Assembly (NCBI GenBank): GCA_948144175.1
Contig: CANXME010002464.1
Span: forward strand, 156,057-220,056
Origin: Closterium sp. NIES-65
Taxonomy: Eukaryota; Streptophyta; Zygnematophyceae; Desmidiales; Closteriaceae
Length of the DNA stretch: 64,000 bases
Reading direction: 5' to 3'
The translations under genes were made by a program, and so were the position numbers. Positions 2,993 to 64,000 of the stretch are shown here, piece by piece. Every line of letters starts with the position of its first letter. Position 1 is the first letter of the stretch. Under the pieces are notes generated by a model. It had not been told where the DNA came from. It saw only the letters and a list, made by a program, of their open reading frames with translations, and made no database searches.

Positions 2993-3774
2993 TTCCCTAG
3001 TGGGAACGTTTCCTAGGGCCCACCACTAAAACGACTTTTTTTTCTTTACCTGCCTGCAGCGCGCTTCGCGCCTGCCCTAGTCGCGCCTCGTGCGCCTGCC
3101 CTCCCGTCGCGTCCCCTGCCCTTAGTGGCCCGTCGCGCCCTCTTAAGGCCCCTTTGCGGCCCCTCTCACGGCCCTTCGCGGCCCCTTCGCAGCCCTTTGT
3201 GGCCCCTCTCACGGCCCTTCGCGGCCCCTTCGCAGCCCCTCGCGGCCCCTTCGCAGCCCCTTCGCGGCCCCTCGCGGCCCCCTCTCGGCCCTTTCGCTGC
3301 CCTTCGCGACCCCTTCACGGCCCCTTCGCCGCCCCTCGCGGCCCCTCGCGGCCCCTTCTCGGCCCCTTCGCCGCCCTTTGCGGCCCCTTCACGGCCCCGT
3401 CGCCGCCCTTCGCGGCCCCTCGCGGCCCCTTCTCGGCCCCTTCGCCGCCCTTCGCGGCCCCTTCGCGGCCCCTCCGCGGCCTCTCCGCGGGCCTTCGCGG
3501 CCCTTCACGGCCCCTTCGCCGCCTTCGCGGCTCCTTCACGGCCCCTCCGTGGCCCCTTCGCGGCTCGTCACGGCCCCTTAGCGGCCCCTCCCCGGCTCTT
3601 CACAGCCCTGCCGCCCCGTCGTCGCCGCCCCAGCAGCAGCTGCCGTCGCGCCTGCTGCCGCTGCTGCTTCCTCCACGGCGGGTCGCCGCCGCCGCTGCTG
3701 CCGTGACAGCCGCCGCCGCTCCTGCCGTGACATCCGCCGCCGCCGTACCGGCCCTACCCTGCAGCCGAGGCGCG

Positions 3775-3906
3775 TGAGAAGAAATGAACGAGAATGAGAT
3801 GACTATGAACGAAGTGAGTACAAATAGGAAACCCTAATCGGGTTGTACCCCCTATGGGATACCCCACTATAGCCTACACAAATAAGTAAGCTATAATGTT
3901 CTGACA
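3775..3906 (-). repeat. 3' LTR of Cop-3 (132 bp)
   Basis: Read on the minus strand it starts TGTCAGAACATTATAGC and ends TTCTTCTCA, with the core GTAGGCTATAGTGGGGTATC and GGGGGTACAACCC. It follows a polypurine tract in the order expected for a minus-strand element. Confidence 0.9.
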
Positions 3907-4120
3907 CACCCCCATAGGCAAAGTGGGGCAGAACAAGGGGTCACAAGACCAGTCAAGCAAAGCAAAGCAAAGCTCAGGGTGGATCACAAAGTCACCACAC
4001 ATTCCGAGCACAAGTTCAAAGGCCAGAAGGCCAGTTCACATGCAAGATCATATATATAGAGATATACAAGAGTCAAGTAAGCAAGAGCAAGAGTATATAT
4101 AGGTGAAGGTACAAGTAAGG

Positions 4121-10662: not shown

Positions 10663-11706
10663 CTATGGGGAACAGGGAGCCTTTAAACAGTGCTGCTGGG
10701 AGAGAATATTAACTCCTCGGAACGCTCGACCCGTATTAGCGCTCTGGAGTAGGGTCCCCATAATACCCGGTACCGGTTTAATTTCTGACTCTCCCTTAAT
10801 AAAGGCTTGAAACCCACGAGAAGTAATATTCTTACTTGTCGGGGTATACGGCTGGAGTTTCCCGGTCGGTGCAGGGTCTTGTTTCGCGGATCCTCCATTA
10901 GTCTCGGCGATTTCCCCTGGTGCCGGCTGGTCGTGACGTTTTAAATTTGCGCCACCATATTCTCCTTTTTTCGCCCTCTCCGAAGTTGCCACGTTGTCCG
11001 TTTTCTGCTTCGGGGGTGCCGCACTGTTCTTGTCCTTCAGCTCCGCACACCTTCTCTTCATTTTCCAACACGCCAAGATACGATGTCATGTAGCGCCGCA
11101 AAATTTGCACGTCTCATTATTTGCTAGCCGCTGCTCCACATAGCCCTCGTCGTTCTCCATCGGGTCAGCAGTCGTGGGTGGTGCCAATCGCCCCATGCCA
11201 CTAGTTGGCTTGTTGCGTCGTGTTCCGTAGTAGCTACTGTTCAACGTGTCGAACTGTTCGATCAGTGCTGCCGGAACCTGCGCCCACGTCCCCTCGCCTT
11301 GGACTATTCTGTTGTTGATCCACTCTAGAGCTGGGCCTCGTAACAGTGTTGCTGCGAGCCGTATGCGCATTGCGTCTTTTGCCGGGGTCGTGCATCTAAC
11401 GGCTTCGAAGTAAATTTCGAGTTCAGCTACAAATCGACGAACGTCGTTCCTTTTTACTGTAGGATCAAACGCCTCCGGTAGCCTCAGCTTCACTGCTTCG
11501 AGGTTAACTGTAGCTGCTGCCGTTGTCGCATGTAGAATTGTCGGTGTAGCCGCTGCTGCTGCTGCTACTGTTGTCGCTGCTGCTGTGGCGGTTGCCGACA
11601 GGTTCGCAAGGAGTTTTTCGAGTCGTGGGAGCGCTGCACGTATTTGCTTATGCTCAGCACGTAGCTCCGCGATTTTCTGTACTGAAATATCTCTTTTTTC
11701 CTCCAT
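10663..11706 (-). pseudogene. gypsy-type gag with CCHC zinc knuckle (broken)
   Basis: The frame starts at 11,706 (MEEKRDISVQKIAELRAEHK), with a coiled-coil-like N-terminus, an Ala/Thr-rich stretch, then a retrotransposon-gag capsid-like region (LRLPEAFDPTVKRNDVRRF, LRGPALEWINN, FDTLNSSYYGTRR). A CX2CX4HX4C knuckle follows (CKFC, H, C at about 11,100-11,072), but one of its X positions is a TGA at 11,086-11,088. The frame then stays open to 10,663. This would be the RNA-packaging structural protein. Apart from the TGA the knuckle is intact. Confidence 0.75.
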
Positions 11707-47532: not shown

Positions 47533-47865
47533 ATGAACGCGGCGGCGATGGCTTCATGGAATCGAGCCGCAGTGCTCGTGCCGCCGTTCGTTATAGGCGT
47601 CTTGACGGGCTTCACTTTGCTGATGCTGCAGCAGTCACTGTCACCACGCATTCCGATATCATTTGACAGGGTAGAAACAGCAACGGTTCAGAACGAACAT
47701 ACGCCGATCGCGCCGGTTCGCAGTGAATCTCTAACCTCGTTTGAGGAGATCGTACCGTTTCGTTACAACACGAGCGCTGTATTAGTGGACGGAAAGCTGA
47801 ACGTACACTTGGTGGCTCACTCGCACGACGATCTCGGTTGGCTGAAAACCATTGATCAGTATTAC
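47533..47865 (+). CDS. mannosidase exon 1: membrane anchor and HSHDD motif
   Basis: ATG at 47,533 ([19 protein letters not shown]). A GTG 12 bases upstream is not used as a start in nuclear genes. Residues about 12-32 ([21 protein letters not shown]) form one hydrophobic segment, a signal anchor or uncleaved signal peptide. A polar stem follows, then [20 protein letters not shown] with the zinc-binding His and Asp. The donor is TAC|GTGAGT, phase 0. Confidence 0.85.
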
Positions 47866-50800
47866 GTGAGTACGGACTACGAAAAATGCCAGAGATTGAG
47901 AGATTGAAGAATCGGATCGAATTCTGCGTTACTCTCTGTCAGGAGTCCTCACTGCAGCTTGAACTCGTCCGCTGTCCTCGCTGCTACAGCATTGTTCCCC
48001 GAAAATGTTGGAAATAGATTTCAAATGGATCTTCAAGGCCTCCCAGCCGGGCTGCGCTTCCGTAGGGAATTCGATAAGGGGCTTCTGTGTTTGGCGGAAC
48101 ATCGGTCTTTGAAGTTCGGAGAGCCGCATATTAAGTTCGTGACGTGAAATCATGGGCGTGGTTTGTATGACGTGGGTCCGTGTAGTCAGTTCACGCTGAC
48201 AAGCGGAGATGACGAAAGTCTGACAAATGCTAACCTTCATCCGCACCCTGTTTCTGTTTCGTCGTACATCACTGCAGGTCGACCCGGTACAGTACATCAT
48301 TGAGACCGTCGTTGACCAGCTTTCAGACAATCCTGACCGTAGATTCATTCAAGTCGAGCAGGTGAGAGCATCGTCTGGACCTAGTAATAGGTTCAATGTG
48401 GCCTTACGTTTGCACGGTAGTACCAAGTGCTCCGTACCTCTACTGCTAAATCCTAAGTGGAAGCATATTACAAGTCGCACCACTTATCTGTATTTCTGCA
48501 GGGTTTTTTCTATCGTTGGTGGGAACGCCAGCACGAACCAATGCGGGATAAAGTACGGAAGCTGGTGGCTTCTGGCCGATTGGAGTTCATGTGAGTCAGC
48601 CCATGCCTTGATGTAGACCGGGATTCACTGACAACATCGCATTCTGACATGTGACAGGAGGGATACGAATCTAGTAGCATCACCCATGCTTTTTCAAGTT
48701 TTCATTACCGTAGCATGCATGCATTCGCTGAATTCAAGTTTTCCCTCACCTCCAGAGCATGGCGTGTAGGTCATGCATGACAGGAGTACTGGGCATGCTG
48801 CACACCCCCATGGCGGGATGTTGAAGAACCCTCATTTGACATGTCATCCCCCCCTCCTCCCCCTCCTACAACCCCCACTCCCGTGTCTACCCTTCCCCCC
48901 ACTTCCCCCTCCCTCCCCCTCCTTTCCTTCCCCTTCTTCTCTCATACACATATCTTCTATGTTTCTTCCATGTGCTATGCTGTGCAGCAACGGCGGGTGG
49001 GTGATGCATGACGAGGCGTGTGCACATTACACGGACATGGTGCATCAGATGGCCATGGGGCACCGCTTCCTCATGGCGACATTCAACGTCACCCCGCGCA
49101 TCGCCTGGCAGATCGACCCCTTCGGCCACTCTGCTACTCAAGCCAGCCTCATCACTGCTCAGGTGCGGCCTGGGCAGGTGGTCCTTCCCCTCCTTCATTT
49201 CCCTTCCCCCCCACCTCCCCCCCACTTAGTCCCCCCCCACCCCTCCCCACATGCATGTCCACCAGGCGCAGTGTTCATGGGGAGGGTGGACCAGCAGGCA
49301 AAGGACGCTCACATGGCCGCCTGCGAATTCCAACCCCTGCCCCCTTTCCCATTCCCCATCCCTTCCTCTCCACGAAATCACCACCACCCCTCTCTTCCCA
49401 CCTTCCCCTTTCCCCCACCCTTCTCCCACAAGCATCTCTCCACCAGACGGGGCTACAAGCGGTGTCCATGGGGAGGGAGGACCAACAGGAGAGGGAGACT
49501 CGGTTGACCATCCACTCCCACCCCCGACCCCCCATCCCTTTTCCTCCCACCCACCTCCCACACACGTGCCCACCAGGCGGGGTTGGAAGCCGTGTTCATG
49601 GGGAGGGTGGACCAGCAGGAAAAGGAGTCTCGTTTGGCCGCCAAAACAATGGAGTTTGTGTGGCGGGCAGACGGGGCGACGCAGAGAGAAAACCAGGTGT
49701 GTGCTAGGGTGTGCTGCTGCTGTATGGTAGGGTGTGTTACGGTGGATTCTATTGGAAAAGCAGACTCGTTTGGCCACCAAAACAATGGAATGGAGTTTGT
49801 GCGGCGTGCTGAAGGGGCGTCACAGAGAGACAACCAGTTGTGTGTGATATGTGAGGAGGCTGATTGAATGGTAGGGTGTGCTGCTGGGGATTGAATAGGA
49901 GAAGCAGGCTCACATGTCCGCCAGGACATCACAGTTCGTGTGCCAGACAGGCAGGCAGCTGTATTTCTCTAATACACGAACTGGGGCCACATGTGGTATT
50001 GTCTACGACAGACAATACGAAGGTTCGTTCGAGGCAACCAGGTGGGCCACATGTCATGCTGTTGAGATGTAGGGTGTGCTGTTGTGGAGCGAATATTGCG
50101 TGCGTTGTACGGGTGATGGTGAAGATAGGATCTGGTGGTGCTCGTGCATTGAGTGTGCTTCGGTTAGATTGGTCGTACCAAGGTCACCATCTTCTCTCCT
50201 CTTGTCAAATGCAATGCACCTGATCCGCTAGATTGCATGTAGCAAAGCGAGTTCTTATCCTCTTCTTACATTTTAATTCAAAACTAGCAGATAGCACTGT
50301 GAGTCAACTCTGCCAGCGGCAGATGAAGTCAAATTCGCGTCAAAGACTTTGGATGTCACGAGCACCATCGGATGTCATGCGCCCAGCAATCAAGGTGGCT
50401 TTTTTGACGTTCGCGAGCGCGGCGATCTCGATTTCAAAAAACCTTCATCGTCAACCTTGGAATGGTATTCGGTTACTACTTGCCCATACCAGGAAACAGA
50501 CGATCCTACCAGCCATTCCCCTCGCCACCCCACTCTCTCCACCCCTCTCCAACCCTCTCCCAGGTGCTGGGAATGGTATCCTATGATGGTTACTACTCGC
50601 CCTCACAGTTCCGCTACCAGGACTCAGACGATCCTTCTTACCGCATTCAGGTACTCCCTCGCTCTCTCTGCTGCTCTGCACTCGCCCCTCTGCTGCAACG
50701 CACTTGCCCCTCTGCTGCAACGCACTTGCCCCTCTGCTGCAACGCACTTGCCCCTCTGCTGCAACGCACTTGCCCCTCTGCTGCAACGCACTTGCCCCTC

Positions 50801-53800
50801 TGCTGCTCTGCACTTGCCTCTCTGCTGCACAGCAAGCTTCATGTGTGCACCTCTCCTGTAGGCGCGTGATAAAGGAGTGTTTTTGAGACGTCTCACCATG
50901 CCTTCCACCATGCCTTCCACCATGCCTGTCAGCACCATGCCTTGCACCACTCAGTGTTTCGGCTGATCACTTGTGTGGATCCCTGGTCGTGTGCGCACTG
51001 AACCCCCTTACTCCTGACAACCCCATTTCACTCTGCAAGAGTAACTCCCCCTTTCCTGCCTTGTCGCACCACCACAGCTTCCCCACACCCTCTGCTCTTC
51101 CATTGCTCGATCTGCTCTACCATCGTCCCTCTGCCCTCGTCCACTGGTCAGGACAATCCCTATGGGGGGTCGCCCAACGTGCAGCGCCTGGTGGACGAGT
51201 TTGTAGCGGAAGTGACCAAGAGGGTGAGTGAGTGGCTCTTGGGCCTTCAAGTGGTTCTTGCCCAGTACATGTTTTTATAGTTGACATAAAAACGAACGTG
51301 CAGCGCCTCGCAGAAGAGTTTGTTGCAGAAGTAACACCGAGGGTGGGTGAGTGAGTGGCGCTTGGAGTGTGCTTTGAGACGTCTTGAAAATTTTGACACC
51401 GAGAGTGAGTGGTGTGGCGCTTGGACTGTGTTTCAAGCGCACTTGCACAGTAGATGTTCGTGTTAATCATGCTGAAGTGCTCATGGTTTGAAATATGGGC
51501 GACGTGACTGATTGAGCGCGCAATGTTAGTCGCCTAAGTTTTTTTCACGTTTCTTGGTACTTGCATGGGGCCTTCAAGTCTTCTAAGTTCCCTGGTGTGC
51601 GTGATTGGCCCTCCTCTGTACCATCCACAGCGTCTTTCCACCCGCCAACCCCTCTATCTCAAAACCCTTTCTTCCTCTCACTGCCTTAACCGTTGCTCTC
51701 CACGGTTCTCATCTCACTCACCCCCCAAGGGGCCTCACGGGTTTAAGATATGCTGTTCCCTATGAGCAAGGACTTTGCGTTGAACCAGCCACCCTTCACC
51801 CATTGCATCCTCTGCACCTCACCGAGTGAGTGAGGCTCACTCTCTCCCACACACTCTCCCGAGGAAGCAGAGGGCTTCAAGGCGAATCACCTGCTGCTTC
51901 CCATGGGCGAGGACTTTACCTTGAACCAAGCCCTCACTCACTCACTCACCCACTCATTCACTCACTCACTCACTAACTCCCTTGCTGCTTCTTCTACACC
52001 TTACTCTCTCTCACACTAACTAACAGGCGGAGGGCTTTAAGACGAATCACCTGCTGTTCCCCATGGGCGAGGACTTTGCGTTTGACCGCGCCATCTTGTG
52101 GTTCAAGAACATGGACAAGCTCATTCACTACGTCAACCTGGTCGGTCGCTCGCTGGGTGGTTGGTGTGGTATGGCATGGCATGGCTTGACATGACACATC
52201 ATGCGATGGGATGGGATGGGATTGCATGCTATCTCGTGGTTCAAGAACATGGACAAGCTCATTCATTATGTCAACCTGGTCAGTCGCTGTTGGGTCGCTG
52301 TGTGTTAGGCATGGCTTGGGATGGCATGGCGTGGCATGCCATCTCGTGGTTTAAGCTCATTCACCACGTCAACCTGGTCAGTTGCTCGCTGGGTGCGAAG
52401 TGGGCTGATGGATGCTGGATGATTGGGTTGGGTCGCTGCTGGTTGCTTGGCTTGGCATGGCATGGGGTGGGATGGCGTGCGTGACATGCCATGCCATCTC
52501 ATAAGAAACCAATTTTTTGCACCTTGGGATGAGATTTTACTCATTTTAACTCTGTACCTGTGTTACAGGACGGGAGGGTGAACGCGCTCTATTCCACGCC
52601 ATCCATGTATCTGGACGCACTCCACTCTGCCAATGCCACGTGGCCTCTCAAGACTGGTGACATGTTCCCGTGAGTCAGCAGGCAGGCAACGGTTTGGTTA
52701 CCCCTGCAACTAGCCATCCCCACCCACCCGCACCCATCCGCGCCCACACGCACTCACCACACTGCATTCATCTATATATGTTCTTAAAAAGAATATATAT
52801 CTCTCTCACCCATCATGCCCCCCTATCGCTCACCCATTCCCCTTCCCCTTCTCCCTCCCAATCTCTGCTTTTCCATGCCCAAGAGTCTCTCACCCCAGCC
52901 ATGGGGAGGACGGCTCAGCACGCCCCACCGGGCGGCACAGCACACCCCGCTGGGCGGCACAGCACACCCCGCTGGGCGGCATAGCACGGCACAGCACACC
53001 CCGCTGGGCGGCATAGCACACCCCGCTGGGCGGCACAGCACGCCCCACTGGGCGGCACAGCACGCCCCACTAGGCGGCACAGCACGCTCCACTGGCCGCC
53101 ACAGCACGCTCCACTGGACGGCACATCACGCCCACTGGACAGGCTGGGCCATGGCACAAGGGAACCTATTCTCTGCATAGAGTTCTCACATACCCTCCCC
53201 CCAGTCTCCCCCCTTCCCGCTCCCCTCCCCCCTTGCCTCACCCCTCACCCCATGCATGTGCCCCTCGCCCCAGCTATCAGGACGATGGGCCCTACTGTTC
53301 GGGCTACTTCAGAGGAGAAACCATTGTCCGCATATGTTCTCGCGTTCCCCCCCTCGTCCCCATTCCCCTCCCTCCCTTCCGCCCACCCTCTCCCTCCCCT
53401 CCGCCCATGCGCCCCTCGCCCCAGCTACCAGGACGACGGGCCCTACTGGTCCGGCTACTTCACATGAGGACCCTTCTCCGCATATTTTCCCCCGTCCCCC
53501 AACCCCTCCCTCTTCTCCGTCCATGCGCTCCTCGCCCCAGCTACCAGGACGACGGGCCCTACTGGTCCGGCTACTTCAGCAGCCGCCCCTCTCTGAAGCT
53601 CCTCGCGCGCTCCTGCAGCGCCCTGCTGCTGGTGCGCTGCCCTCTCAACCTGCTCATTTGATGTGGTGTGGTGTGGTGTGGTGTGGTGGGATGGGATGGG
53701 ATGGGCTGGGATGGGCTGGGGTGGGATGGGATGGGATGGGATGGGATGGGATGGGATGGGATGGGATGGGATGGGATGGGATGGGATGGGATGGGATGGG

Positions 53801-56800
53801 ATGGGATGGGATGGGATGGGATGGGATGGGTTGGGATGGGATGGGATGGGATGGGATGGGATGGGATGGGATGGGATGGGATGGGATGGGATGGGATGGG
53901 GATGGGGTGGGGTGGGGTGGGGTGGGGTGGGGTGGGGTGGGGTGGGATGGATGGATGGGATGGGATGGATGGGATGGGATGGGATGGGATGGGATGGGAT
54001 GGGATGGGATGGATGGGATGGGATGGGATTGGGATGGGATGGGATGGTTGGGATGGGATGGGATGGGATGGGATGGGGATGGGATGGGATGGGATGGGAT
54101 GGGATGGGATGGGATGGGATGGGATGGGGATGGGGGTGGGGTGGGGTGGGGTGGGGTGGGGTGGGGTGGGGTGGGGTGGGGTGGGATGGGATGGGATGGG
54201 ATGGGATGGGATGGGATGGGATGGGATGGGATGGGATGGGATGGGATGGGATGGGATAGGATGGGATGGGATGGGATGGGATGGGATGGGCTGGGGTGGG
54301 ATGGGATGGGATGGGATGGGATGGGATGGGATGGGATGGGATGGGATGGGATGGGATGGGATGGGATGGGATGGGATGGGATGGGATGGGATGGGATGGG
54401 ATGGGATGGGATGGGATGGGATGGGGTGGGGTGGGGTGGGATGGGATGGGATGGGATGGGATGGGATGGGATGTCACATTGGGTCTTACTCCCTGAAGCT
54501 CCTCGTGCGCTCCTGCAGCTCGCTGCTGCTAGCGCGCTGCTTATTTCAGCTGCCTGTTTCTGTGTGATGCTATGGGATGGGATGGGATGTTGTATGGTAT
54601 GATGCGATATGCTGTGTTGTGATGTGATTATGATGTGACGCGAAAAGAGAATTCACCTATTAATTATTTCCCTCCCTACAGTCACATCATCCAGACCTGC
54701 CGCACCCTCCCATCTTTCACTCTGGCCTGTTGTTTCAACCATTTGAGTCAACTCAACAGTCACATCAATCACGTTTTCCTCACTCACCCATGTTTCACGC
54801 AACCCGTCGGTCGATGCTGCTCGCCTGGCCTACATGCAGGGGACTGGTTGGTTGGTTGGCGTCAGTGCTGGAAGCTACGGATGCCTGAACCCACCTGGCT
54901 CACGTCACTTGGCGCGCCCTTGAAAAGCACACTTGCCATTGCTTCCTTTCAAGGACAAGAAGTGGGCTGAAGCTGTCTTGCTTACCCCAACAGCATCACA
55001 TGTGTGCCTGTCCTGCTCTCTCGTCCTTCAGGCCACCACAGCAGCAGAGGCAGCAGTGGGGAAGGAAGCGCTACAGGCATGGGGCATGGCGACGGGGCGC
55101 ATGATGGTACTGGAGCACCTTGTGCTCGACACACACATGGGCAAGACGACCAGAGACAGCCAGAAGGAGGAGAAGCAGGCGGATGGGGGGGAGAGTGCGG
55201 GAGGGGTGGAGCGGATGAGGGTGGGGTGGGAGAGCGAGCGGCGGGTGCGAGTGGCGAGCTCGTTCCGGTTGGAGGAGGCGGTGGCAGTGGTGCAGCACCA
55301 TGATGGCATCACAGGCACGGCGCAGCAGCATGTTACCGATGACTACTCTGACAGGCTGCACCGCGCTTCTGAGGAGGTGAGGGTTGCACGGGATAGAGGT
55401 TGATCCCTTCAGTGCACGGGTAGAGACTGCTCCTGTGAGTGTATGGCATGGGCTAGAGGAGGCGGTGGCAGTGGTGCAGCACCATGATGGGATCACAGGC
55501 ACGGCGCAGCAGCATGTTACCGATGACTACTCTGACAGGCTGCACCGCGCTTCTGAGGAGGTGAGGGTTGCACGGATAGAGGTTGATCCCTTCAGTGCAC
55601 GGGTAGAGACTGCTCCTGTGAGTGTATGGCATGGGCTAGAGGAGGCGGTGGCAGTGGTGCAGCACCATGATGGGATCACAGGCACGGCGCAGCAGCATGT
55701 TACCGATGACTACTCTGCTCTGCTGCACCGCATTGCTGAGGAGGTGAGGGATGAGTGCATGGGTAGAGGTTAGTCCCCTCAGTGCAAGGCGAATGGACTG
55801 GAGGAGGCGGTGGCAGTGGTGCAGCTCCATGATGGCATCACGGGCGCGGCCCAGCAGCACGTTACTGATGATTACTCTTCCAGACTTCACCGCGCTTCAG
55901 AGGAGGTGAGTGCGTGCCTGATGACTGGCTTGCTACAGCTAGGGCTGGTCGGGGTTAGGGTTGAGCTCGTTCCGGCTGTAGGCGGCGGTGGCAGCGGGGC
56001 AGCACCACGACGGCATTACAGGCACGGCACAGCGGTACGTTACTGATGATTACTCTGCTAGACTTCACCGCGCTGCGCTGGAGGTGAGCTGTGGCGTGGA
56101 TGGCGACGGATGGTATTAGGTGCTGCGTGCATGTGTGAGCTCCTATGCGTGCATGTGTGAGCTCCTATGCGTGCAACACCGCATCACAGGCACAGCACAG
56201 CAGCATGTTACTGACGACTGCTCTGAACGGCTGTATTGCACTGCACTGCCGAGGTTGGGTGCTGCGTACATACACGTATGGGTTGGTTTGGTTTGGGTTG
56301 GGTTGGGTTGGGTGCGACATGCATGGTATTACCATAGACTGCTCCTTTAAATGGGTTCAGGCTGGTGCTAGCCTCCCAACCTCACGGGCCCCCATTCCCC
56401 ATACCACCCACCGCCGACCGCCGACCCAGGCATCCACCAGCTGTGCTCACAGCAGCCCTCATGCACCTCATCACGCGAGGCACCCCCCACCCCTCCCCAG
56501 ACACTCCACTCCACACACCTAGGTGACTTTTGAGTCGACTCAAAAGTCACCTCACTCCACACACCTCACCTCGCCATCCCCATCTTCCCCACCCATAGAG
56601 GAATCAGCCGTGCTGACACCTCATCATGCGAGGCACCATCCCCCCTCTCCAGGCACTTCACACACCCCACCATCCCCATCCGTACCCCCTCCTGCCAACT
56701 TCCCCTCCCATCTCCCAACCTCCCATGCCCCACCCTACCAACCGCCCATGCAGGCATCAGCCGTGCTGACAGCAGCACTGGCGCACCTCATCACGCGAGG

Positions 56801-59800
56801 GACCCTCCCCCCATCCCCATCCGTACCTCCATCCAACCTCTCCTCCAACCTCTCCTCGCGGGCAGCAGCAGCCGTGGAGTTCACATTTAGGGAGGACAGT
56901 GTCGAGCAGCGCGGGTGGGGGTTCTGGAACCAGTTAGCAGATGGAGCAGAGGAGGAGGACGAGGAGGATGAGGAAGATGAGGGGGACGAAGAGGGTAAGG
57001 CACGCAACAAAATCGACAGGATGAATGAGTTATTGTATGAGGCGGATAGAGCAGGTGCGGCGGCGGATGACGAAGATGAGGGGGATGAGGAGGCGGGAGA
57101 GGGAGATGGTGGGCAGCATGCTGCAAGGTCCCGTGCAAAGAAGAAAGTCCCTCACGTGACGGAGGAGACAATATCTGAGTCGACTCAGAAAAAATTCCCG
57201 TGTGGAAAAGAGGGTTCCTGACAAGGAGGAGGAGGAGGAGGAGGAGAGAGCAAGCGACCCCAATGAGGTGTTTGACCCTCAGTCGTTGCAGCCAGCTGAC
57301 CCTCAAGCGGTCCAGAATGGTGCTGCTGGCCGTGCTGCTGACGGCACACGGGCTGAGGAGAGGAGGGTGCAGGAGGTGGAGGAGGGGCAAGTGAGCAGGG
57401 GGCGGAGAAGGAGGGGGGTGACGCTGGGCGACGGTGCCAAAGCAGAGCAGGGGGGACAGCAGCTTCCTTCACTGAACCTGAAAATGGTGTGTGATGGTGT
57501 TGATGGTGGCGGTGTGATGTGGTGGTGGTTTGATGGTGGTGTGATTGTGGTGTGATGGATGGTGGTGTGAGTTGATGGTGGTGTGATGTTGATGATTGTA
57601 GAAGTGCGAAACAGGAGCTGGTCAACGAGGTGACTGATTCCCTGGATGTTTCTTTTTGCTACGCCACGATGGTCAAAGGGGCGATTGGTTGGATTCAATG
57701 AAATTGACAGGTTTTGAGACGTCTCAAAACTAGACGTTGTAAAACCAAAGGGGCGATTTGATTGGATCAGATCAGGTTGACAGACTGTACCAACCAGACC
57801 AGCTGCTCTTTCAACTGCTCCCACTACGTCTGAGCATCACAAATTGTTGTGCTCCAACCATTTGTGACCGCTATGCTCCTAACCTCTATGCTGCTTCCAT
57901 CTTGCCTGTCATCCTCTCATCCCTCCTCCCTCTATCACCCCCTCTCATCCTGAATTCCACTCCCCACCCTCCCTTCCTTCCCCCCTCTTCACAGTGCCCT
58001 CTGCTCAACATCTCCTATTGCCCTCCAACCGAAACACCCCTGCAGCCAGATCAGACCCTGGTACGTACCCTGCGTGCTGTGCTGTTTCACATGCCATGCC
58101 ACACACACACCATCCCATAAAGCGCCGTGAAGCATTCCCTCATGCAGTCAGTCAACTCAAAACCCACTGACCTGTGCATCCTTGCTTCCCTCTGTTTCAC
58201 TGCCCATTTCCCAACTGCCCGTTTCCGCATCTCCTTTGCTTGCCTTCCTTGCTACTTTCTCACCTCACCTCTCACATCCATCCCTACTCTCACCTCCATC
58301 TAACTTCTCACCCACCTCCCTCTCCATCTCTCTCTTTCAGTTCCATACGCACCGCTTGTCTCCATGCTTCCTCCCTCCCACCCATATCCTTATACCCGGG
58401 CACCTTTGAGAATTCCCAAGGCACCTTTGAGAACTCCCAAGGCACCTTTGAGAATTCCCAAGGCACCTTTGAGAACTCCCAAGGTACCATTGGGAATTCC
58501 CAAGGCACCTCATCCATATCATATCGGCCCACACGTCTCCACCTTTCTCATCCATCCATACCCATCGGGCCATCCCACAGGTGGTGGTGGCCTTCAACCC
58601 TCTTATGAGGTGCCTCAAAAGCACCTCATCTGTATCATATTGGCCCACACGTCTCCACCTTTCCCATCCATCCATACCCATCCCACAGGTGGTGGTGGCC
58701 TTCAACCCTCTCGCGTGGTCCCGCTCTGAAGTGATTCGATTCCCGGTATGAGTGCACCGCGCACCCTTCAATGCTGTTACTTGCTTCATCCATCTTGCCT
58801 TGCATTGGCATTAAGCATCAGCAATTGCATCAGCAACTGCATGGGCACCTGCATGGGCACCGGCACCAGAGGTCGACAGCATTAACAAGTGAACGATTTG
58901 TTGCCCTCCTCTCCCTTACAACGCAGAGGTTTCACACACTCTCCCTCCCCACACAACACCCCCCTCCCTCTGTTCTCACTCCTTGATAGGTATCTTTCCC
59001 CAGCTTACTCCTCACTGCTGCCTCTCATGCCCCCATCCCCTCTCAAATTTCTCAACAATCACTCTCCTCCCTTTTTACATTCACTCCACTCCAACCACAT
59101 CATGTCTTACGCCCTTTCCATCCCTTCCCTCCTCTGCTCCTCCCTCTCTCTCTCCCCTTCCCACTACGCTCCTTGACAGGTGTCATCCCCCTACCTTCTA
59201 GTCACTGATGCCTCTGGCGCCCCCATCCCCTCTCAAAAACTTCAAGAGACCCTCCTCTCCCCTCCCTCTGTTCCCCCCGTCTCTCCGCCTCTCCCACTGC
59301 TCTCCCTGACAGGTGTCATCCCCCCATCTCCTTGTTACCGACGCTTCTGGCGCCGCCATCCCCTTCTCAAATACTCCAAGAGACCCTCCTCTCCCCCTCC
59401 ACCTGCTCCACTCCAACCACATCAGGGGCTTACGCTTTCCCTTCCACCCCCTCCCTTCTCTTCCTCTCCCCTCTCCCCCTCTCCCAATGCTCTCCCTGAC
59501 AGGTGTCATCCCCCAATCTGCTAGTCGCCGACGCCTCTGGCGCCCCCATCCCCTCTCAAATAATCAGGGAGACGCTCGTCACCCCCGCCACCCCGCTCCA
59601 CCTACATTGCTGCTTACACTGGCGTGGGGGAAATAGTAGGAGAGGTGGAGGGGGAGGAGGAAGGGGTGGAGGGGGGGGAAGGAGGGGAGGAGGGAGCGGA
59701 GGAGGGGGAGGAGGGGGATGAGGAGGAGGGCGGGGGAGGGGGAGGGAGGAGGAGGAGTGGGTGGATTATGGGGATGGGCGAGGGCCGCAGCCGAGCCATA

Positions 59801-59936
59801 AGCCGAAAAGGAAGCATCGGGAGAGGCAGACGAAGGAGGAGACGGGGGGAGAGCAGAAGGAGGGAGAGCAGAAGGAGGGAGAGCAGAAGGAGGGAGAGCA
59901 GAAGGAGGGGGAGCAGCGGGAGGGAGAGCAGGAGGG

Positions 59937-59980
<44 letters not shown>

Positions 59981-62900
59981 CAGTGCTGTCGCTTGTGTTT
60001 TATGCAGAGGTGCCTCCTCTTGGATTCGCCACCTTCTTTGTCTCGCCAGCAACCCAAGGTACAGCACCTATCATCAGTCAGGTACGCTGTCTAGCCCATC
60101 TCGAAAAATCGTCACTCGGGTTTGCTACTCATGGCGGAAGAGCAGCAAATCTGAAGCTTGTCAGAAGTACAGAAGCTGTGGTATACAGCTCGCTAAGGTA
60201 TGTTCCAAGGAAAGAGCTCACTGGAAAGGACGGTTTGCCAAGGTATGTTCCATGCAGACAAGCACATGCACAGAGAGCAAGCAGAGCATGCTACGTGTGT
60301 GCTTCCTGTCACAACCACAGCACCCCTGCAAACCACTCTGCTCCCTTGCTCACCTGCCTCTCACAATTCCACGCCTTCCCCACGTGCAGACACACCTGGC
60401 AGAGCGTACGAGAGTGCTGCATGGAGCAGTGTGGTTGACGCTACAGCAACAACGGCAGCGGCAGCAGCAGCAGCACAGCCTGTGGCAGCACCGCTGCCTG
60501 CGACAGCAGCAGCAGCATCATCAGCATCTGAAAAGGCATCAGCTGAGACGGAAGCTGCAGCGGCCCAGGCAGGGGCAGCCGAGAAGCAACCCGGCAAGGC
60601 GGGGAGGGGGAGGAACACGAGAGGGCGGAGGATGGCGGTGCGCGGTGGACAGGAGGGAGGGTTGAACGGTGGGGAGAGGAGAGGGAGAGAGGCGGGGAGC
60701 AGGGGGAGAGGAAGCAGGAGGGGGTTGCATGGCGGTGGTGGGGGAATGGAGGAGGGCAAGATGGTGGGGGAGGAGGAGAGGGAGGGGGAGGGGGAGGGAG
60801 GGGGCTGGAAGGGGGTGATACTGTTGTGCTGGGAGGGTGGCAAGGCGTGGGGGCCACTCGTGGTAGCGGTGCTGCTGGTGCTGGCACGGACGGTGGGGAG
60901 CGGGCTGCGTTGCGTGTCTCGTTCTCCAAGTCAGCGGTGGGCATGCAGCGGATGGAGCTGGTCTCTCGGAGTGCCAATGGCACGGAGGAGGTTGTGGTGA
61001 GTGGTGTGGCACGGGGGAGATTGTGGTGTGGCAGTGGAGTAAGTAAGTGGTGGGTGGTGATGTGACTATGGCGGGCAATTAGCGATGGGTGTTGAGTGAG
61101 GGAAAAGGGTTGGCTGGCGGCATGAGCAGGGATGACATGGGCAGGGATGACATGGGCAGGGATGACATGGGCAGGGATGACATGGGCAGGGATGACATGG
61201 GCAGGGATGACATGGGAAAGGATTACATGGGCAGGGATGATTTGTTACTGGCTGGGATGATTTGTTACTGGCTGGGATGATTTGTTACTGGCTGGGATGA
61301 TTTGTTACTGGCTGGGATGATTTGTTACTGGCTGGGAAAGCGAGATTAGAAAGGATAGAATGGGTAACCTCCTGCAAGCTGTTGCAGTTGAAGAGCATAT
61401 TGACTTGACACAGTGGATCGTGTCAATCCTTCTTTCTACTTTCTTTGCAACTAAAGCATAGCGTACTCACATAGTGAAGCGAAAACACTGTACTTTCCAG
61501 TCCAGCCGACAATGGCACTTGGTAGGCACTGCACTTGTACCATCCTCAAATGGATGTAATTTCTCGTTGTGCACTCCTGTTACATGCCCTGTCATGTCAT
61601 CTGCTCTGCTCCCTGCATACCATGGCACGCACCCCCTCACCCCACCACATCATCCCATCCCACGCCCCCCCATGCCGCGCCATGGCACAGCGCATGGGCA
61701 TGGCAGTGAGTGCCAGCATGATGGAGTATGCCACCTTAGCTTGAGGTGCATACATCGTACCACCTCATCCACTCCACCCCACCCCATGCCACGGCAGCGC
61801 ATGGGCATGGCAGTGAGTGCCAGCATGATGGAGTATGCCACATTCGCCGGCGGCGCATACATCTTCCAACCCTCCAAGCCAGCCATGCCCATCACCTCCA
61901 CCAACGCCACCTACCAGGTCAGTCAGTGGACGTGTGGGTCACAACAAGCGCCAAGGTGCACGCAGCATGGATCTCACACTCCACTGATAGAACCAGTGCC
62001 TTGAGTCTCCACTGGTAGAACCAGTGCCTTGAGTCGTTCAAGTCACAGCAGGTGCATACATCTGAGTCGCTTTTGAGAATTCTCAAGAGCGACATCTTCC
62101 AGCCCACCAAGCCAGCCACGCCCGTCACCACCACCACGAATAGCACTCACCAGGTCAGTGGGCGGGAGGGTGGGTCACGACTCAGAACCACCACCATGAC
62201 GCAGCATGCCTCTCGCAGGGCAGTGGTGGCGCCAGTGGCAGTGTCTTGAGAATGAAAAGGTCAGAGGAGGTGGTGTGTGCACCGCAGCGCATGGGCATGT
62301 ACGTGATGCACCATAGTGCGACATGCTTGTGATGCTTCTCCTGCTGCACCGGTGCTGACTGTGCCTTCAGTGTAGAATGGCTCTTGATGGCTGGGGTGGG
62401 TGGGTGCTCTCGTGGGTGCGTGCGTGCATGGGTGGGTGGGTGGGTGGGGTGGGTGGGTGGAGTGAAGCCGCTTTACAGCACCAGGCCTTTGATTTCCATG
62501 AGATTTTTGTTCTGCTCTGCTGACGTGGCACAGGTGCCCATTCACATCCAGCGTGGACCAATCGTGGAGGAGTTCAGCCGCCAGATCACTCCATGGATCT
62601 CTGAGGTGAGTGCACTTCCTTCACCTCCTTCTCCTCCACCTCCTTGAGTGTGCAGGGCACTTTTCAGAAACATAAACCCGCAACTTCCTGCAGTGGTGCA
62701 TAAATGGATTCCCTTTTTGTTACCTCGCCCTACCCACTGCAACGTGCTTCCACTGCCTCATTGCATCCTCCCGCTGCTTGCGTCTCTGCCGCTCTGCACC
62801 GCTCCCAACTCCCAGGTCTTCAGAGTGTATCCAGGGGGGACTACGCTGAGCTGCACTATTCCGTGAGTGCTCTCTGATTCTTGCACACCCTGGTTTCCAG

Positions 62901-64000
62901 AATCCGCATGAACCGACTCTTCATTTCAGTCGTCTCACAAGACATTGCCTGGGCCAACCGGCTGTGGTCTGACAAGACGTTGCTTGGGCCAGATGGATCC
63001 CTGCCCCCCTGGGGTGGCAACCAGACCAGAGGTGTGGTGGTGTTTCGCCTCACCACTGCTTGTGAAGCCATTTCCACGCGATGGAAAAGGAATGCGCTGC
63101 TAGTTCACATCAGCCTGTGCTGTTCATTGCTGTGTGCGTGCGTGCGTGCGTGTGTGTGTGTGATGACCAGGTGGGTCCGCTGCCCGCCAAGCAACCAACC
63201 ACGAGGTGGTGACTCGCTTCGTGTCGCCCATCAACAGCAGCAAGGCCTTCTACTCCGACTCCAATGGCCGCAGCTACCTCAAGCGGGTGAGACGTTGTTT
63301 GTTGTTTGTTGTGTACACACACAGTCCGTGTTGGCGCTGGAAGCTCTCTTCAATGCGCCCATCAACAGCAGCAAGGCCTTCTACTCCGACTCCAATGGCC
63401 GCAGCTACCTCAAGCGGGTGAGACGTTGTTTGTTGTTTGTTGTGTACACACACAGTCCGTGTTGGCGCCTGGAAGCTCTCTTCAATGCGCCCATCAACAG
63501 CAGCAAGGCCTTCTACTCCGACTCCAATGGCCGCAGCTACCTCAAGCGGGTGAGAGGGTGTTTGTTGCGCTCGCATGAGTGTACACTACACGGTCATTGC
63601 TTGCTGCTGCCTGGCAACTCGACACGCTTCACTGCTCCCATTGACAGCAGCACAACCCGCTATTCTGAATCCAACAGCCAGAGCTACATCATGCGGATGA
63701 CTTTCGTGGATAATCAAAAGTGACTTTCAATAGCCTGAGCTGCAACAAGCGGGTGAGAGAGGTTGCAGATCTGGGTTCCTGACAGGCTACCGTTGACAGG
63801 AGGAGCTCTTTTCACGCAGTGGGGTGGGTGGTTGATCGCCACGTGTATGAAGTAATGTTTTGAGATGTCTCAAAGCTATATCAAGCGGGTGAGAGAGGCT
63901 CTAGATTTGGGATCCTGACAGGCTACTGATGACAAGAGGAGCTCTTTTCACACAGTGGGGTGGGTGGTTGATCGCTTCCCCTCCTCGTGACAACAGCAGC
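47533..64000 (+). CDS. GH38 class II alpha-mannosidase, plant vacuolar/lysosomal type, many exons, 3' end outside window
   Basis: Predicted to hydrolyse alpha-mannose from N-glycans in the secretory/vacuolar pathway. Exons placed by homology and GT/AG sites: 47533-47865, 48278-48361, 48502-48590, 48988-49162, 49577-49696, 50564-50650, 51152-51223, 52027-52140, 52569-52669, 53541-53631, 55032-55376, about 56754-56800 or longer, 57995-58060, 58689-58745, 59503-59580, about 59980-60057, about 60890-60996, 61798-61917, 62534-62605, 62816-62862, 63171-63286. Active-site motifs: [15 protein letters not shown] (zinc His and Asp), WQIDPFGHS (nucleophile Asp), QHHDGITGT (zinc His). Almost every exon fits its neighbours in phase. 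Exons 20 and 21 are each one base short. Many exons have decayed copies beside them. The residues after HSHDD separate it from Golgi mannosidase II, which has HSHNDPGW. Confidence 0.85.
48278..48361 (+). CDS. mannosidase exon 2
   Basis: 28 codons ([20 protein letters not shown] ... RRFIQVEQ), phase 0 at both ends, matching the conserved NRKFIYVEQ region after QYY. Acceptor CTGCAG, donor GTGAGA. Confidence 0.85.
48502..48590 (+). CDS. mannosidase exon 3
   Basis: [20 protein letters not shown] ... LVASGRLEF, the FFxRWW helix of GH38. Leaves phase 2, donor AT|GTGAGT. Confidence 0.87.
48988..49162 (+). CDS. mannosidase exon 4: nucleophile motif
   Basis: [20 protein letters not shown], then [20 protein letters not shown] and [12 protein letters not shown]. 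The Asp of WQIDPFGHS is the catalytic nucleophile and zinc ligand of GH38. Completes the split codon of exon 3, ends phase 0. Confidence 0.9.
49248..49965 (+). repeat. decayed copies of exon 5
   Basis: Partial copies at about 49,262-49,330 (GTGTTCATGGGGAGGGTGGA), 49,443-49,502 (GTGTCCATGGGGAGGGAGGA), 49,750-49,846 (CGTTTGGCCACCAAAACAAT) and 49,895-49,960. Several keep the CCACCAG or CAACCAG splice context but have lost parts of the frame. Confidence 0.8.
49577..49696 (+). CDS. mannosidase exon 5
   Basis: 40 codons: [39 protein letters not shown]. Matches the GFDSVFFGRIDYQDR ... LEVIWRGS region. Acceptor CCACCAG, donor GTGTGT. Confidence 0.83.
50564..50650 (+). CDS. mannosidase exon 6
   Basis: 29 codons, [20 protein letters not shown] ... 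SDDPSYRIQ, aligning with the YEPPxGFYYEITDDSP region. Phase 0 at both ends. A decayed copy lies at 50,452-50,512 ([13 protein letters not shown]). A 22-bp repeat follows directly. Confidence 0.7.
50660..50830. repeat. 22-bp tandem repeat in intron 6, about 7 copies
   Basis: Unit CTGCTGCAACGCACTTGCCC plus CT, starting 10 bases after the exon 6 donor. Confidence 0.85.
50884..50895. repeat. palindrome TGAGACGTCTCA
   Basis: 12-bp perfect palindrome preceded by TTTT; a partial member of the TTTTGAG-NNNN-CTCAAAA family. Confidence 0.7.
51152..51223 (+). CDS. mannosidase exon 7 with downstream copy
   Basis: 24 codons, [20 protein letters not shown] ... VTKR, the YNVQxRVxDFV region. A decayed copy at 51,297-51,343 (CGTGCAGCGCCTCGCAGAAG...) still ends before a GT. 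Confidence 0.82.
51725..52385 (+). repeat. decayed copies around exon 8
   Basis: Upstream copies of its 5' half at about 51,727-51,785 and 51,862-51,920 (GGCTTCAAGGCGAATCACCT). Downstream copies of its 3' half at about 52,229-52,278 (AACATGGACAAGCTCATTCA) and 52,340-52,379 (CTCATTCACCACGTCAACCT). Both downstream copies end before a GTCAGT donor, better than the one of exon 8. Confidence 0.82.
52027..52140 (+). CDS. mannosidase exon 8
   Basis: 38 codons: [20 protein letters not shown] ... [14 protein letters not shown], the TNHIMFTMGTDF and MDKLIHYVN region of GH38. Donor GTCGGT is weak. Confidence 0.85.
52569..52669 (+). CDS. mannosidase exon 9
   Basis: [20 protein letters not shown] ... 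[12 protein letters not shown], the DGRVNxxYSTPS region. Ends phase 2 before GTGAGT. Confidence 0.88.
52912..53130. repeat. 22-bp tandem repeat in intron 9, about 10 copies
   Basis: Unit GGGCGGCACAGCACACCCCG plus CT, with sequence drift along the array. Confidence 0.85.
53541..53631 (+). CDS. mannosidase exon 10
   Basis: Completes the split codon, then [20 protein letters not shown] ... [10 protein letters not shown], the YWTGYFTSRPALK region. Donor GTGCGC, phase 0. Two partial copies of its start lie at 53,272-53,319 and 53,425-53,467, each after CCCCAG. A copy of its end lies at 54,487-54,545. Confidence 0.83.
53663..54472. repeat. (GGGAT)n pentanucleotide array, about 160 units
   Basis: About 810 bp of GGGAT with three blocks of GGGGT (about 53,901-53,943, 54,133-54,183, 54,422-54,438) and GTGTG at the start. 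All frames are open because of the 5-base period, giving artefact frames of up to 448 codons on both strands. It separates exon 10 from a second copy of that exon's 3' half. Confidence 0.97.
55032..55376 (+). CDS. mannosidase exon 11: QHHD motif
   Basis: 115 codons, phase 0. A low-conservation first part ([20 protein letters not shown]) is longer than in other family members. Then [20 protein letters not shown] and [18 protein letters not shown]. The QHHDxxxGT His is the fourth zinc ligand in GH38 structures. Donor GTGAGG. Confidence 0.87.
55377..56250 (+). repeat. tandem array of the QHHD exon segment, five further copies
   Basis: Copies at about 55,453-55,560, 55,637-55,743, 55,800-55,905, 55,978-56,080 and 56,170-56,250. 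The first period is 184 bp and the second 183 bp, so copies 2 and 3 read through in frame with the intron between them. Copies drift: copy 4 has QLHD, copy 6 has lost the HHD. GTGAGG, GTGAGT or GTGAGC donors persist in copies 2-5. Confidence 0.92.
56521..56552. repeat. 32-bp perfect palindrome flanked by 14-bp direct repeats
   Basis: The left half is AGGTGACTTTTGAGTC and the right half is its exact complement read backward. CACTCCACACACCT is repeated directly against both ends (56,507-56,520 and 56,553-56,566). Confidence 0.93.
56754..57221 (+). CDS. mannosidase exon 12 region with acidic extension
   Basis: [16 protein letters not shown] matches the EAESVVATSLAHL region that follows the QHHD motif. 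The frame stays open through a highly acidic low-complexity stretch ([15 protein letters not shown]) to 57,221. How much is exon and where the donor lies is unclear. Two decayed copies of the exon start lie at 56,441-56,480 and 56,594-56,635, each with GCATC or GAATCAGCCGTGCTGAC-like sequence. Confidence 0.55.
   Translation, partial: ASAVLTAALAHLITRGTLPPSPSVPPSNLSSNLSSRAAAAVEFTFREDSVEQRGWGFWNQLADGAEEEDEEDEEDEGDEEGKARNKIDRMNELLYEADRAGAAADDEDEGDEEAGEGDGGQHAARSRAKKKVPHVTEETISESTQKKFPCGKEGS
57174..57189. repeat. 16-bp palindrome TCTGAGTCGACTCAGA
   Basis: Perfect; same core type as the 32-bp palindrome (TGAGTCGACTCA). It falls inside the open acidic frame. Confidence 0.85.
57711..57730. repeat. 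20-bp palindrome GTTTTGAGACGTCTCAAAAC
   Basis: Perfect. It sits between two imperfect copies of a ~38-bp segment containing CAAAGGGGCGATT and ending TTGACAG (57,671-57,710 and 57,743-57,781). Confidence 0.93.
57995..58060 (+). CDS. mannosidase exon 13
   Basis: 22 codons, [22 protein letters not shown], the conserved [11 protein letters not shown] motif of plant-type GH38. Acceptor TTCACAG, donor GTACGT. Confidence 0.9.
58401..58505. repeat. 21-bp tandem repeat, 5 copies
   Basis: Unit CACCTTTGAGAATTCCCAAG plus G, alternating AATTC and AACTC. The unit holds a damaged form of the TTTTGAG-AATT-CTCAA palindrome seen at 62,066. Confidence 0.9.
58689..58745 (+). CDS. mannosidase exon 14 with upstream copy
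   Basis: 19 codons, [19 protein letters not shown], matching VVVVYNPLGWKR. A copy of its start (VVVAFNPL) with CCCACAG acceptor lies at 58,581-58,604 and ends in a hairpin (GAGGTGC and GCACCTC, 58,605-58,629). Confidence 0.88.
59503..59580 (+). CDS. mannosidase exon 15 with two upstream copies
   Basis: [25 protein letters not shown], matching the VSxxxVVVxDSxGxxIxSQ region. Earlier copies at 59,180-59,252 ([20 protein letters not shown]) and 59,313-59,385 ([18 protein letters not shown]) each follow TTGACAG or CTGACAG. Which copy is spliced is not decidable from sequence; the copies could be alternatives. Confidence 0.75.
59624..59979 (+). repeat. Glu/Gly-rich low-complexity stretch, 15-bp repeats and (CAG)13
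   Basis: GGAGGGGGAGGAGG-type sequence, then GAGAGCAGAAGGAGG units (about 59,850-59,935; Glu-Gly-Glu-Gln-Lys in frame), then about 13 CAG from 59,940, running straight into exon 16. It could be an in-frame acidic and polyglutamine insertion or intron; a TGA at 59,719 breaks one of the frames. Confidence 0.75.
59980..60057 (+). CDS. mannosidase exon 16
   Basis: [25 protein letters not shown], matching the LxFxAxVPPLGFSTY motif of the C-terminal domain. The start is unclear because of the CAG run; donor at AAG|GTACAG. Confidence 0.75.
60890..60996 (+). CDS. mannosidase exon 17 (tentative)
   Basis: [30 protein letters not shown] resembles the beta-domain segment that follows VPPLGF in GH38. Donor GTGAGT in phase 0. 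The acceptor is not certain, and 60,060-60,890 otherwise shows only low-complexity sequence. Confidence 0.5.
61125..61337. repeat. two adjacent minisatellites in intron 17
   Basis: GCAGGGATGACATGG (15 bp) about 7 copies, then GCTGGGATGATTTGTTACTG (20 bp) about 5 copies. Both share GGGATGA, so the second may derive from the first. Confidence 0.9.
61798..61917 (+). CDS. mannosidase exon 18 with flanking copies
   Basis: 40 codons, [20 protein letters not shown] ... [27 protein letters not shown] matches the conserved SGAYIFRPN. A copy of the 5' half is at 61,689-61,742 (ends in a stop), a copy of the 3' half at 62,092-62,155 ([20 protein letters not shown]) with GTCAGT donor. Confidence 0.82.
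62066..62093. repeat. 28-bp near-perfect palindrome with AATT centre
   Basis: Arms GTCGCTTTTGAGAA and TTCTCAAGAGCGAC, one mismatched pair. ACATC lies at both edges (62,058-62,062 and 62,092-62,096) and the insertion interrupts the 3' copy of exon 18. Confidence 0.88.
62534..62605 (+). CDS. mannosidase exon 19
   Basis: 24 codons, [24 protein letters not shown], matching the xxVxRGPLVxExHQxFxPWI region. Acceptor GGCACAG, donor GTGAGT. Confidence 0.87.
62816..62862 (+). pseudogene. mannosidase exon 20, one base short
   Basis: Reads VFRVYPGG and then, only if the frame moves by one, DYAELHYS before the GTGAGT donor. The break is in a run of six G. The exon is 47 nt where 48 would keep the phase. 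It is either a true frameshift or a homopolymer sequencing error. Confidence 0.7.
63171..63286 (+). pseudogene. mannosidase exon 21, one base short
   Basis: VGPLPAKQ, then a frame change, then [30 protein letters not shown], matching the VGPIP ... EIVTxxxT ... FYTDSNGRDFIKR region. 116 nt where 117 is needed. Confidence 0.72.
63325..63960 (+). repeat. tandem copies of the exon 21 segment
   Basis: Period 131-132 bp. Copies at 63,325-63,417 ([20 protein letters not shown], open for 31 codons between AG and GT), 63,456-63,549, then diverged ones at 63,620-63,695 ([20 protein letters not shown]), 63,720-63,753 and 63,866-63,888 (each ending AAGCGGGTGAGAGAGG). Confidence 0.9.
63859..63874. repeat. 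TTTGAGATGTCTCAAA near-palindrome
   Basis: 16 bp with one central mismatch; member of the TTTTGAG-NNNN-CTCAAAA family, again between two copies of the exon 21 end. Confidence 0.8.

Follow-up and report, generated by a model that had tools for sequence, protein, structure and literature searches.

The window analysed here, a stretch of 64,000 nucleotides from Closterium sp. NIES-65, carries on its + strand a gene for a GH38 alpha-mannosidase of the lysosomal type (47533..63286), modelled with about 21 exons, mostly joined across GT-AG introns. The model was built by eye, guided by homology and splice sites, and the boundaries it gives for exons 12, 15, 16 and 17 are provisional. Its first 553 residues contain the GH38 N-terminal and middle domains according to Pfam (PF01074, E 1.1e-75; PF09261, E 4.7e-15), which places the product among the GH38 alpha-mannosidases. 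The closest solved relative is the jack bean alpha-mannosidase (6b9o, E 3.7e-159), matched in three stretches covering residues 2 to 721 of 981; the gene is cut by the end of the window, and the model stops at this residue 721. That the nearest solved relative comes from jack bean suggests a gene of the green lineage. Exons 20-21 (62816-63286) have no single read-through frame in the assembly, possibly because of a sequencing error or of damage to the gene, and the interval 56860-57160, past exon 12, is open, acidic and glutamate-rich and may be either a part of the protein or intron. Introns 1-20 sum to 13367 bases, i.e. a mean of 668 bp by our arithmetic, near the mean introns of 485-554 bp given for Closterium (PMC10407611), a comparison that is no test.

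The remainder of the window (1-47400), as judged from its ORFs, is mostly made of Copia-type elements, with several Copia-like ORFs on both strands. One Copia-type ORF submitted to Pfam matches RVT_2, and an ORF at 11086-11706 is weakly gag-like, under the Pfam cut-offs. Between retroelement ORFs lies a tandem array (2024-2853) in which a 181-bp unit recurs about 4.6 times, the units being about 87% alike; no long open frame was seen in it. Relatives were sought in viral contigs and in phages and none was found in either; an Rfam search gave no match.

Partial exon copies in the adjacent introns

Many exons of the mannosidase gene are accompanied, in the introns next to them, by partial copies of themselves, hereafter called echoes. 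Every modelled exon, 21 in all, was compared by alignment with the introns on either side (up to 900 bases of each), and its best score was set against the maximum of 100 dinucleotide-preserving shuffles. For 12 of the 21 exons, a direct copy scores above the shuffle maximum. These are exon 17 and all 11 exons (5, 6, 7, 8, 10, 11, 12, 14, 15, 18 and 21) for which an earlier note on this DNA had claimed partial copies. The best scores range from 46 to 205 in ten of the twelve; they are 32 for exon 6 and 34 for exon 17, the latter narrowly above its shuffle maximum of 30. Exon 4 ties with its shuffle maximum (27 and 27), and the adjacent-intron scores of exons 1, 2, 3, 9, 13, 16, 19 and 20 are not above the 100 shuffles. 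On the minus strand, used as a control, none of the 21 exons exceeds the shuffles. The same shuffle maxima were applied to the non-adjacent introns, a far larger search space. There, exons 1, 2 and 3 exceed them by 1-3 points (scores 28, 23 and 23) and exon 11 reaches 45 within a stretch holding GA-rich repeats; no other exon passes. The off-diagonal segments anticipated by the earlier note are also found, in a blastn self-comparison, for ten of the named exons. The exception is exon 6, whose echo core (19/21 bases, score 32 against a shuffle maximum of 25) is missed by blastn.

The alignment was repeated over the whole adjacent introns with the found copies masked, giving 31 hits of score at least 30. 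Three were dropped, namely two upstream of exon 11 (TGGGA minisatellite, low-complexity) and one borderline hit of exon 17. The 28 copies kept, 14 upstream and 14 downstream, belong to 15 exon sides of 11 exons, and 8 of these 15 sides bear more than one copy, in keeping with the duplication-prone locus that had been proposed. These results firmly establish the echoes as real tandem partial copies.

All the echoes lie on the + strand, and the real copies of exons 5 (49577..49696), 8 (52027..52140), 10 (53541..53631) and 11 (55032..55376, encoding the QHHD stretch) are given by the gene model and its jack bean match. Exon 5 has two upstream echoes (49207..49520), made of the intron end and the first exon part (47/54 and 50/62 in the exon part), and a downstream echo (49754..49911) made of the last exon part (69/79) and the intron start (54/70). 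The upstream echo of exon 6 is the weakest (50458..50520, extent by eye; tested core 50487-50507). Downstream of exon 7 lies one echo (51295..51365), whose intronic part recurs from 51398, and exon 8 is flanked by two upstream echoes (51751..51935; 57/69 and 28/31) and two downstream ones (52228..52395; 47/51 and 23/24). The two upstream echoes of exon 10 (53255..53462) comprise its first 38-39 bases with the acceptor (35/39 and 38/38). Its downstream echo (54489..54540; 38/42) is 900 bp away, past a 5-bp (TGGGA) minisatellite of about 157 copies (53687-54473).

Exon 11 is followed by an array of five decayed units (55456..56260), each consisting of the last exon third and intron, with a period of about 184 bp at first and exon-part matches of 104/105, 97/105, 95/107, 94/112 and 46/53. 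Two upstream echoes (56398..56661; 38/45 and 16/16) precede exon 12 (56754-56799, 3' end provisional). The upstream echo of exon 14 (58511..58603; 23/23 in exon, 58/62 in intron) is separated from the real copy by a hairpin at 58604-58629, and three upstream echoes belong to exon 15 (58979..59411; 82/98, 68/83 and 26/29). Exon 18 (61798..61917) has one echo upstream (61644..61764; 64/73 in exon, 34/40 in intron) and one downstream (62092..62217), with a 28-bp palindrome (62066-62093) at the left edge of the latter. Finally, the provisional exon 21 (63171..63286) is followed by an array (63356..63975) in which two units match 65/65 in the exon part and one 56/79, and whose farther pair (63738-63839 and 63874-63975) has little exon left. 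The echo spans, set by hand and excluding the exon 21 array, amount to 4414 bases, or 3600 minus the minisatellite, which represents 27-33% of introns 1-20 (3600-4414 of 13367 bases).

Geometry, divergence and coding constraint of the copies

The midpoint of an upstream copy falls in the first part of the exon, at 0.21-0.52 of exon length, in 13 of 14 cases (exon 6 is the exception, at 0.71), and that of a downstream copy falls in the last part, at 0.62-0.90, in all 14 cases. The copies had been described beforehand as covering the first or last half of an exon; this is right, and a direction can be added to it, the first part being found upstream and the last part downstream. They were also said to often keep the AG or GT, which holds in strict register for 8/14 and 7/14, respectively, some of the misses being register slips and the ends of exons 18 and 21 being 1-3 bases off in this count. 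At most one exon edge is reached by 26 of the 28 copies; exon 12 and exon 15, whose own 3' ends are provisional, account for one each of the remaining two. The nearest copy is mostly offset by 110-233 bp from the exon copy.

The copies are not restricted to exon sequence. All 18 pairs examined, chosen from the 28 copies, continue into the intron, by 9-78 intron bases each. In these pairs, identity is 89.5% in the exon parts (1085 aligned bases) and 86.5% in the intron parts (795), values that lean high, as the ranges come from blastn alignments. The copies are in direct orientation and neighbour each other, as tandem duplicates do, and the unit straddles the splice junction in each of the 18 pairs examined, as in the edge-crossing class represented by a potato gene (see below). 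This geometry is the predicted footprint of tandem duplications whose two ends fall on opposite sides of an exon edge. The copy still attached to the remainder of the exon gets called the exon, and the other copy remains in the intron; the rule of first part upstream and last part downstream thus follows from a simple straddling duplication and is, alone, no demonstration of selection.

In the exon 11 array, whole-unit identity to the exon unit changes with distance from 94 to 81, 75, 76 and 66%. The nearest copy is the best-scoring one in 6 of the 8 multi-copy arrays, one of these six being a tie, and the upstream exon 5 array and the exon 12 array show the opposite trend, their nearest copy not being the best. 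Younger copies would thus tend to lie beside the exon, a tendency that is convincing only at exon 11.

Differences between exons and copies are distributed as 60/33/97 over codon positions 1/2/3. There are 98 nonsynonymous and 92 synonymous differences, counts that take in a few bases beyond the ends of exons 18 and 21, and the nonsynonymous share is 0.516, compared to 0.72-0.76 without constraint. By our arithmetic (kappa 2, uncorrected, copies within an array not being independent), dN/dS is about 0.38. We reckon that about 0.5-0.55 is expected for one free and one constrained copy, and far less for two constrained exons. When an assumed caterpillar tree is applied to the exon 11 array, 11.4 synonymous and 6.2 nonsynonymous changes fall on the exon lineage, and 13.5 synonymous and 13.9 nonsynonymous changes on the echo lineages. 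A single stop is seen in the copies, against 5.1-5.4 expected (P 0.03-0.04). A pair composed of one constrained copy and one mostly free copy would fit the codon-position differences. As a dN/dS of 0.38, under the 0.5-0.55 expectation, and the deficit of stops speak against complete freedom, the echoes would be mostly, perhaps not wholly, free of constraint.

Concentration at exon edges and possible origins

To compare exon edges with introns under a single criterion, repeats of period up to 60 were masked and tandem pairs within 1200 bp were collected by blastn (E 0.01). Such pairs are found on 14 exon sides of 10 exons, exon 6 being absent, against only one or two intron-only pairs. One of these two (63738/63874) is inside the exon 21 array, with little exon left; the other (56963/57062) is a 32-base acidic-coding match of low complexity that may be exon. 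When the exons and the exonic parts of the echoes are masked, 13 tandem hits (E<=0.1) are obtained, all of them in or beside echo arrays when grouped by eye. If intron-only and straddling units were placed uniformly, 21% of them would be expected to straddle an edge by at least 20 bp with the present introns, and 30% with the echo spans removed by hand. The bias in detection, a frozen exon being easier to see, was simulated with divergence, indels, masking and the same blastn cut. Straddling and intron-only units are found in 250/250 and 229/250 cases, respectively, with mild indels, and in 331/400 and 245/400 cases with more indels and age, so that the expected straddling share rises from 0.21-0.30 to 0.27-0.37 after detection loss. 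Under the assumption of independent events, the P values by sides for 14/15, 14/16 and 14/17 are 8.5e-6, 4.5e-5 and 1.7e-4 at a share of 0.37, and 9.5e-8, 5.7e-7 and 2.4e-6 at a share of 0.27. By exons (10/11, 10/12 and 10/13), they are 3.4e-4, 1.4e-3 and 4.0e-3 at 0.37, and 1.4e-5, 6.5e-5 and 2.1e-4 at 0.27. Whole-exon or inside-exon duplications would result from only 11-15% of random placements, and their absence is therefore weak evidence for selection. The apparent anchoring at exon edges rests on one gene.

Short palindromes are present in the introns, with the core TTGAG-N4-CTCAA, often TTTTGAG-N4-CTCAAAA, at 54743, 56530, 57714, 62073 and 63860 (extents 54741-54757, 56521-56552, 57711-57730, 62066-62093 and 63857-63874), and with looser relatives at 50879, 51372, 57174 and 58604; the core pattern has no hit in 1-47.4 kb. 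A 21-bp minisatellite at 58399-58510 (unit GGCACCTTTGAGAATTCCCAA) resembles this family. The nine sites, core and looser relatives together, had been noticed before they were tested. With 40 bp flanks, the direct repeats at three of the nine sites are rarer than 0.5% of 2000 random intron positions, a fourth site is at 2.5% and the other five are unremarkable (0.23 to 1.0). The nine-site mean is reached by none of 20,000 random nine-position means; it is less extreme with 90 bp flanks (P 0.007). Two of the palindromes, 58604 (exon 14) and 63857 (exon 21), sit at joins between array units; on visual inspection a third, 62066, seems to have been inserted into the exon 18 echo. The association of palindromes with repeats is a lead, and of the earlier suggestion that hairpins drive the duplications only this hint survives, i.e. 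short palindromes at several copy joins. Palindromic repeats have been reported in Volvox organelle genomes (PMC2670323).

Our preferred reading, to which we give a probability of roughly six in ten, is that numerous short tandem duplications, each reaching from an exon into the adjacent intron, left the echoes behind as remnants. After a duplication straddling an edge, one complete exon would retain both splice sites. The geometry, adjacency and divergence pattern are observed; what we infer is that the surplus half-exon, carrying a single splice site and a piece of intron, would sit in the intron and be removed with it. The complete copy would stay under coding constraint and the extra copy would decay, and repeated rounds at one edge would give rise to arrays. 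The source would most likely be the repair of staggered or nicked breaks, as the size class and the geometry, and these only, suggest. This verdict on the mechanism relies on the sequence pattern together with published precedents. In rice, tandem duplications are described as the commonest insertions, enriched at 50-200 bp, becoming scarcer beyond 125 bp until they make up 5% of events at 200 bp, and ascribed to the repair of adjacent nicks rather than to slippage (PMC7971508). Small tandem duplications, under 100 bp, are also reported from mouse and human cells, where they result from fill-in at complementary 3' overhangs (PMC8355091). Two of our blastn alignments extend past the end of their unit, by 6 and 14 bases; these overruns may be junction homology, which would better fit slippage. 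The left extension at the joins is 0-1 base, a near-tautological value as it is measured from alignment ends, the original break points being lost to decay.

Simple duplication predicts, with random placement, 27-37% of straddling units after detection, against 14 of 15 or 16 observed, and the edge concentration of long-unit duplications is left unaccounted for by the short-duplication explanation. One tentative possibility, which we find rather unlikely, is that the duplication process is aimed at exon edges, where features of exon ends, such as nucleosomes on exons, polymerase pausing or RNA-DNA hybrids at splice sites, would favour nicks or breaks; new half-exon copies would be born beside the exon and pushed into the intron, feeding its growth. 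The 14 exon sides (10 exons) found against one or two intron-only pairs under the same blastn criterion, with P values of 1e-7 to 2e-4 by sides and 1e-5 to 4e-3 by exons, argue for such targeting, as do the location of the 13 residual hits in or beside echo arrays and the drop of identity with distance at exon 11. It is opposed by the fact that a single gene is concerned, whose events may be clustered rather than independent, that echo spans and collapsed introns were set by hand, and that smaller intron-only repeats flank the palindromes at 54741, 56521 and 57711; ordinary repair duplications with chance clustering could possibly suffice. Equally doubtful is the broader proposal that the introns of this lineage grow mainly from their exons by edge-targeted duplication, much of the intron being old exon edge, with the palindromic motif possibly inserted at joins.

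An artefact of assembly, i.e. diverged haplotypes or misassembled repeats merged in one contig, appears improbable to us, and the merged haplotypes evoked by the earlier note fit poorly with half-exon units mostly 110-233 bp off and with graded ages. The frame that is not simply continuous across exons 20-21 and the near-identity to the exon of exon 11 unit 2 (104/105) and exon 21 units 2 and 3 (65/65 in the exon part) are in its favour. However, a merge of haplotypes should give widely spaced repeats of entire exons and introns, most units are part-exons of many ages, and intron parts age together with exon parts. A haplotype merge is thus rejected on unit size and graded ages, except for these near-identical units. 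The store of alternative exons also evoked there, by which copies would be spliced in or used for gene-conversion repair of the exon, is in our opinion very improbable. Many copies retain AG or GT, and the third-position bias and the few stops could point to some use. Nevertheless, 26 of the 28 copies stop at one edge or before any, copies read onward by eye soon hit stops, the jack bean alignment requires none of them, one copy per pair appears largely unconstrained, and nonsynonymous differences make up a far larger share than in a pair under constraint. No copy resembles a usable alternative exon.

The implications of the anchoring at exon edges depend on its extent. If it holds genome-wide, it would name a route of intron lengthening and provide a record of small duplications, which would be datable because selection holds one copy of each pair still; it would also be a warning for gene predictors, which may call echoes as exons. 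If no other gene shows it, what we describe is a remarkable local accumulation of a known, ordinary type of mutation.

Comparison with known systems

Internal gene duplication was reportedly treated by Gao and Lynch in 2009. Duplications of this class, and one case that crosses an edge, are already published; what the literature searched does not report is a gene along which half-exon copies pile up, anchored at exon edges. The statement of the earlier note that no such system is described was nevertheless too strong, as an edge duplication (PMC4974935) and classes for partial copies (PMC12343006) are both found in the available text of these sources.

Mutually exclusive exons, as described in excerpts, likewise arise by local tandem duplication of an exon with flanking intron, but their alternatives are chosen singly (PMC6071210, PMC9013439), whereas 26 of the 28 echoes reach at most one edge; arrays of this kind, which need full-length copies with both splice sites, are rejected on this ground. 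Intron gain of the Rogers type (AGGT) also involves a tandem genomic duplication touching splice signals, but its unit is reported to be exonic, part of it becoming intron (PMC3443670), whereas the mannosidase unit straddles an existing edge; it is rejected for its wrong geometry, the units examined including intron sequence. Introners are rejected within this gene, as there is no dispersal among introns: away from the adjacent introns, 28 is the highest score of any exon other than exon 11 (45, in the stretch with GA-rich repeats).

The other systems are closer. A survey tool, as presented in the excerpts, has classes for partial exon copies and considers exon-like intron matches within the same gene, possibly degenerate exons, and the survey finds such intronic matches in more genes than full-exon duplications (PMC12343006). 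The repair duplications of rice and mammals resemble the mannosidase echoes in being direct tandem copies of an overlapping size class, many mannosidase units (131-233 bp) being at or beyond their upper sizes; anchoring at exon edges goes unmentioned in the portions of these reports at hand (PMC7971508, PMC8355091). The potato RdRp gene is reported to owe a new spliced intron to a tandem duplication spanning an intron-exon edge, and its first intron also contains a separate 83 bp duplication (PMC4974935). The unit of the edge duplication, like those described here, joins an intron's 3' end to the 5' part of the following exon, and its tandem copies are slightly diverged. This duplication differs in being one event, checked with reads, that gave a new intron and added coding sequence, whereas the mannosidase gene has 15 exon sides concerned and, by homology, no added exon. 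From the available text, the potato edge duplication is the closest described event (PMC4974935).
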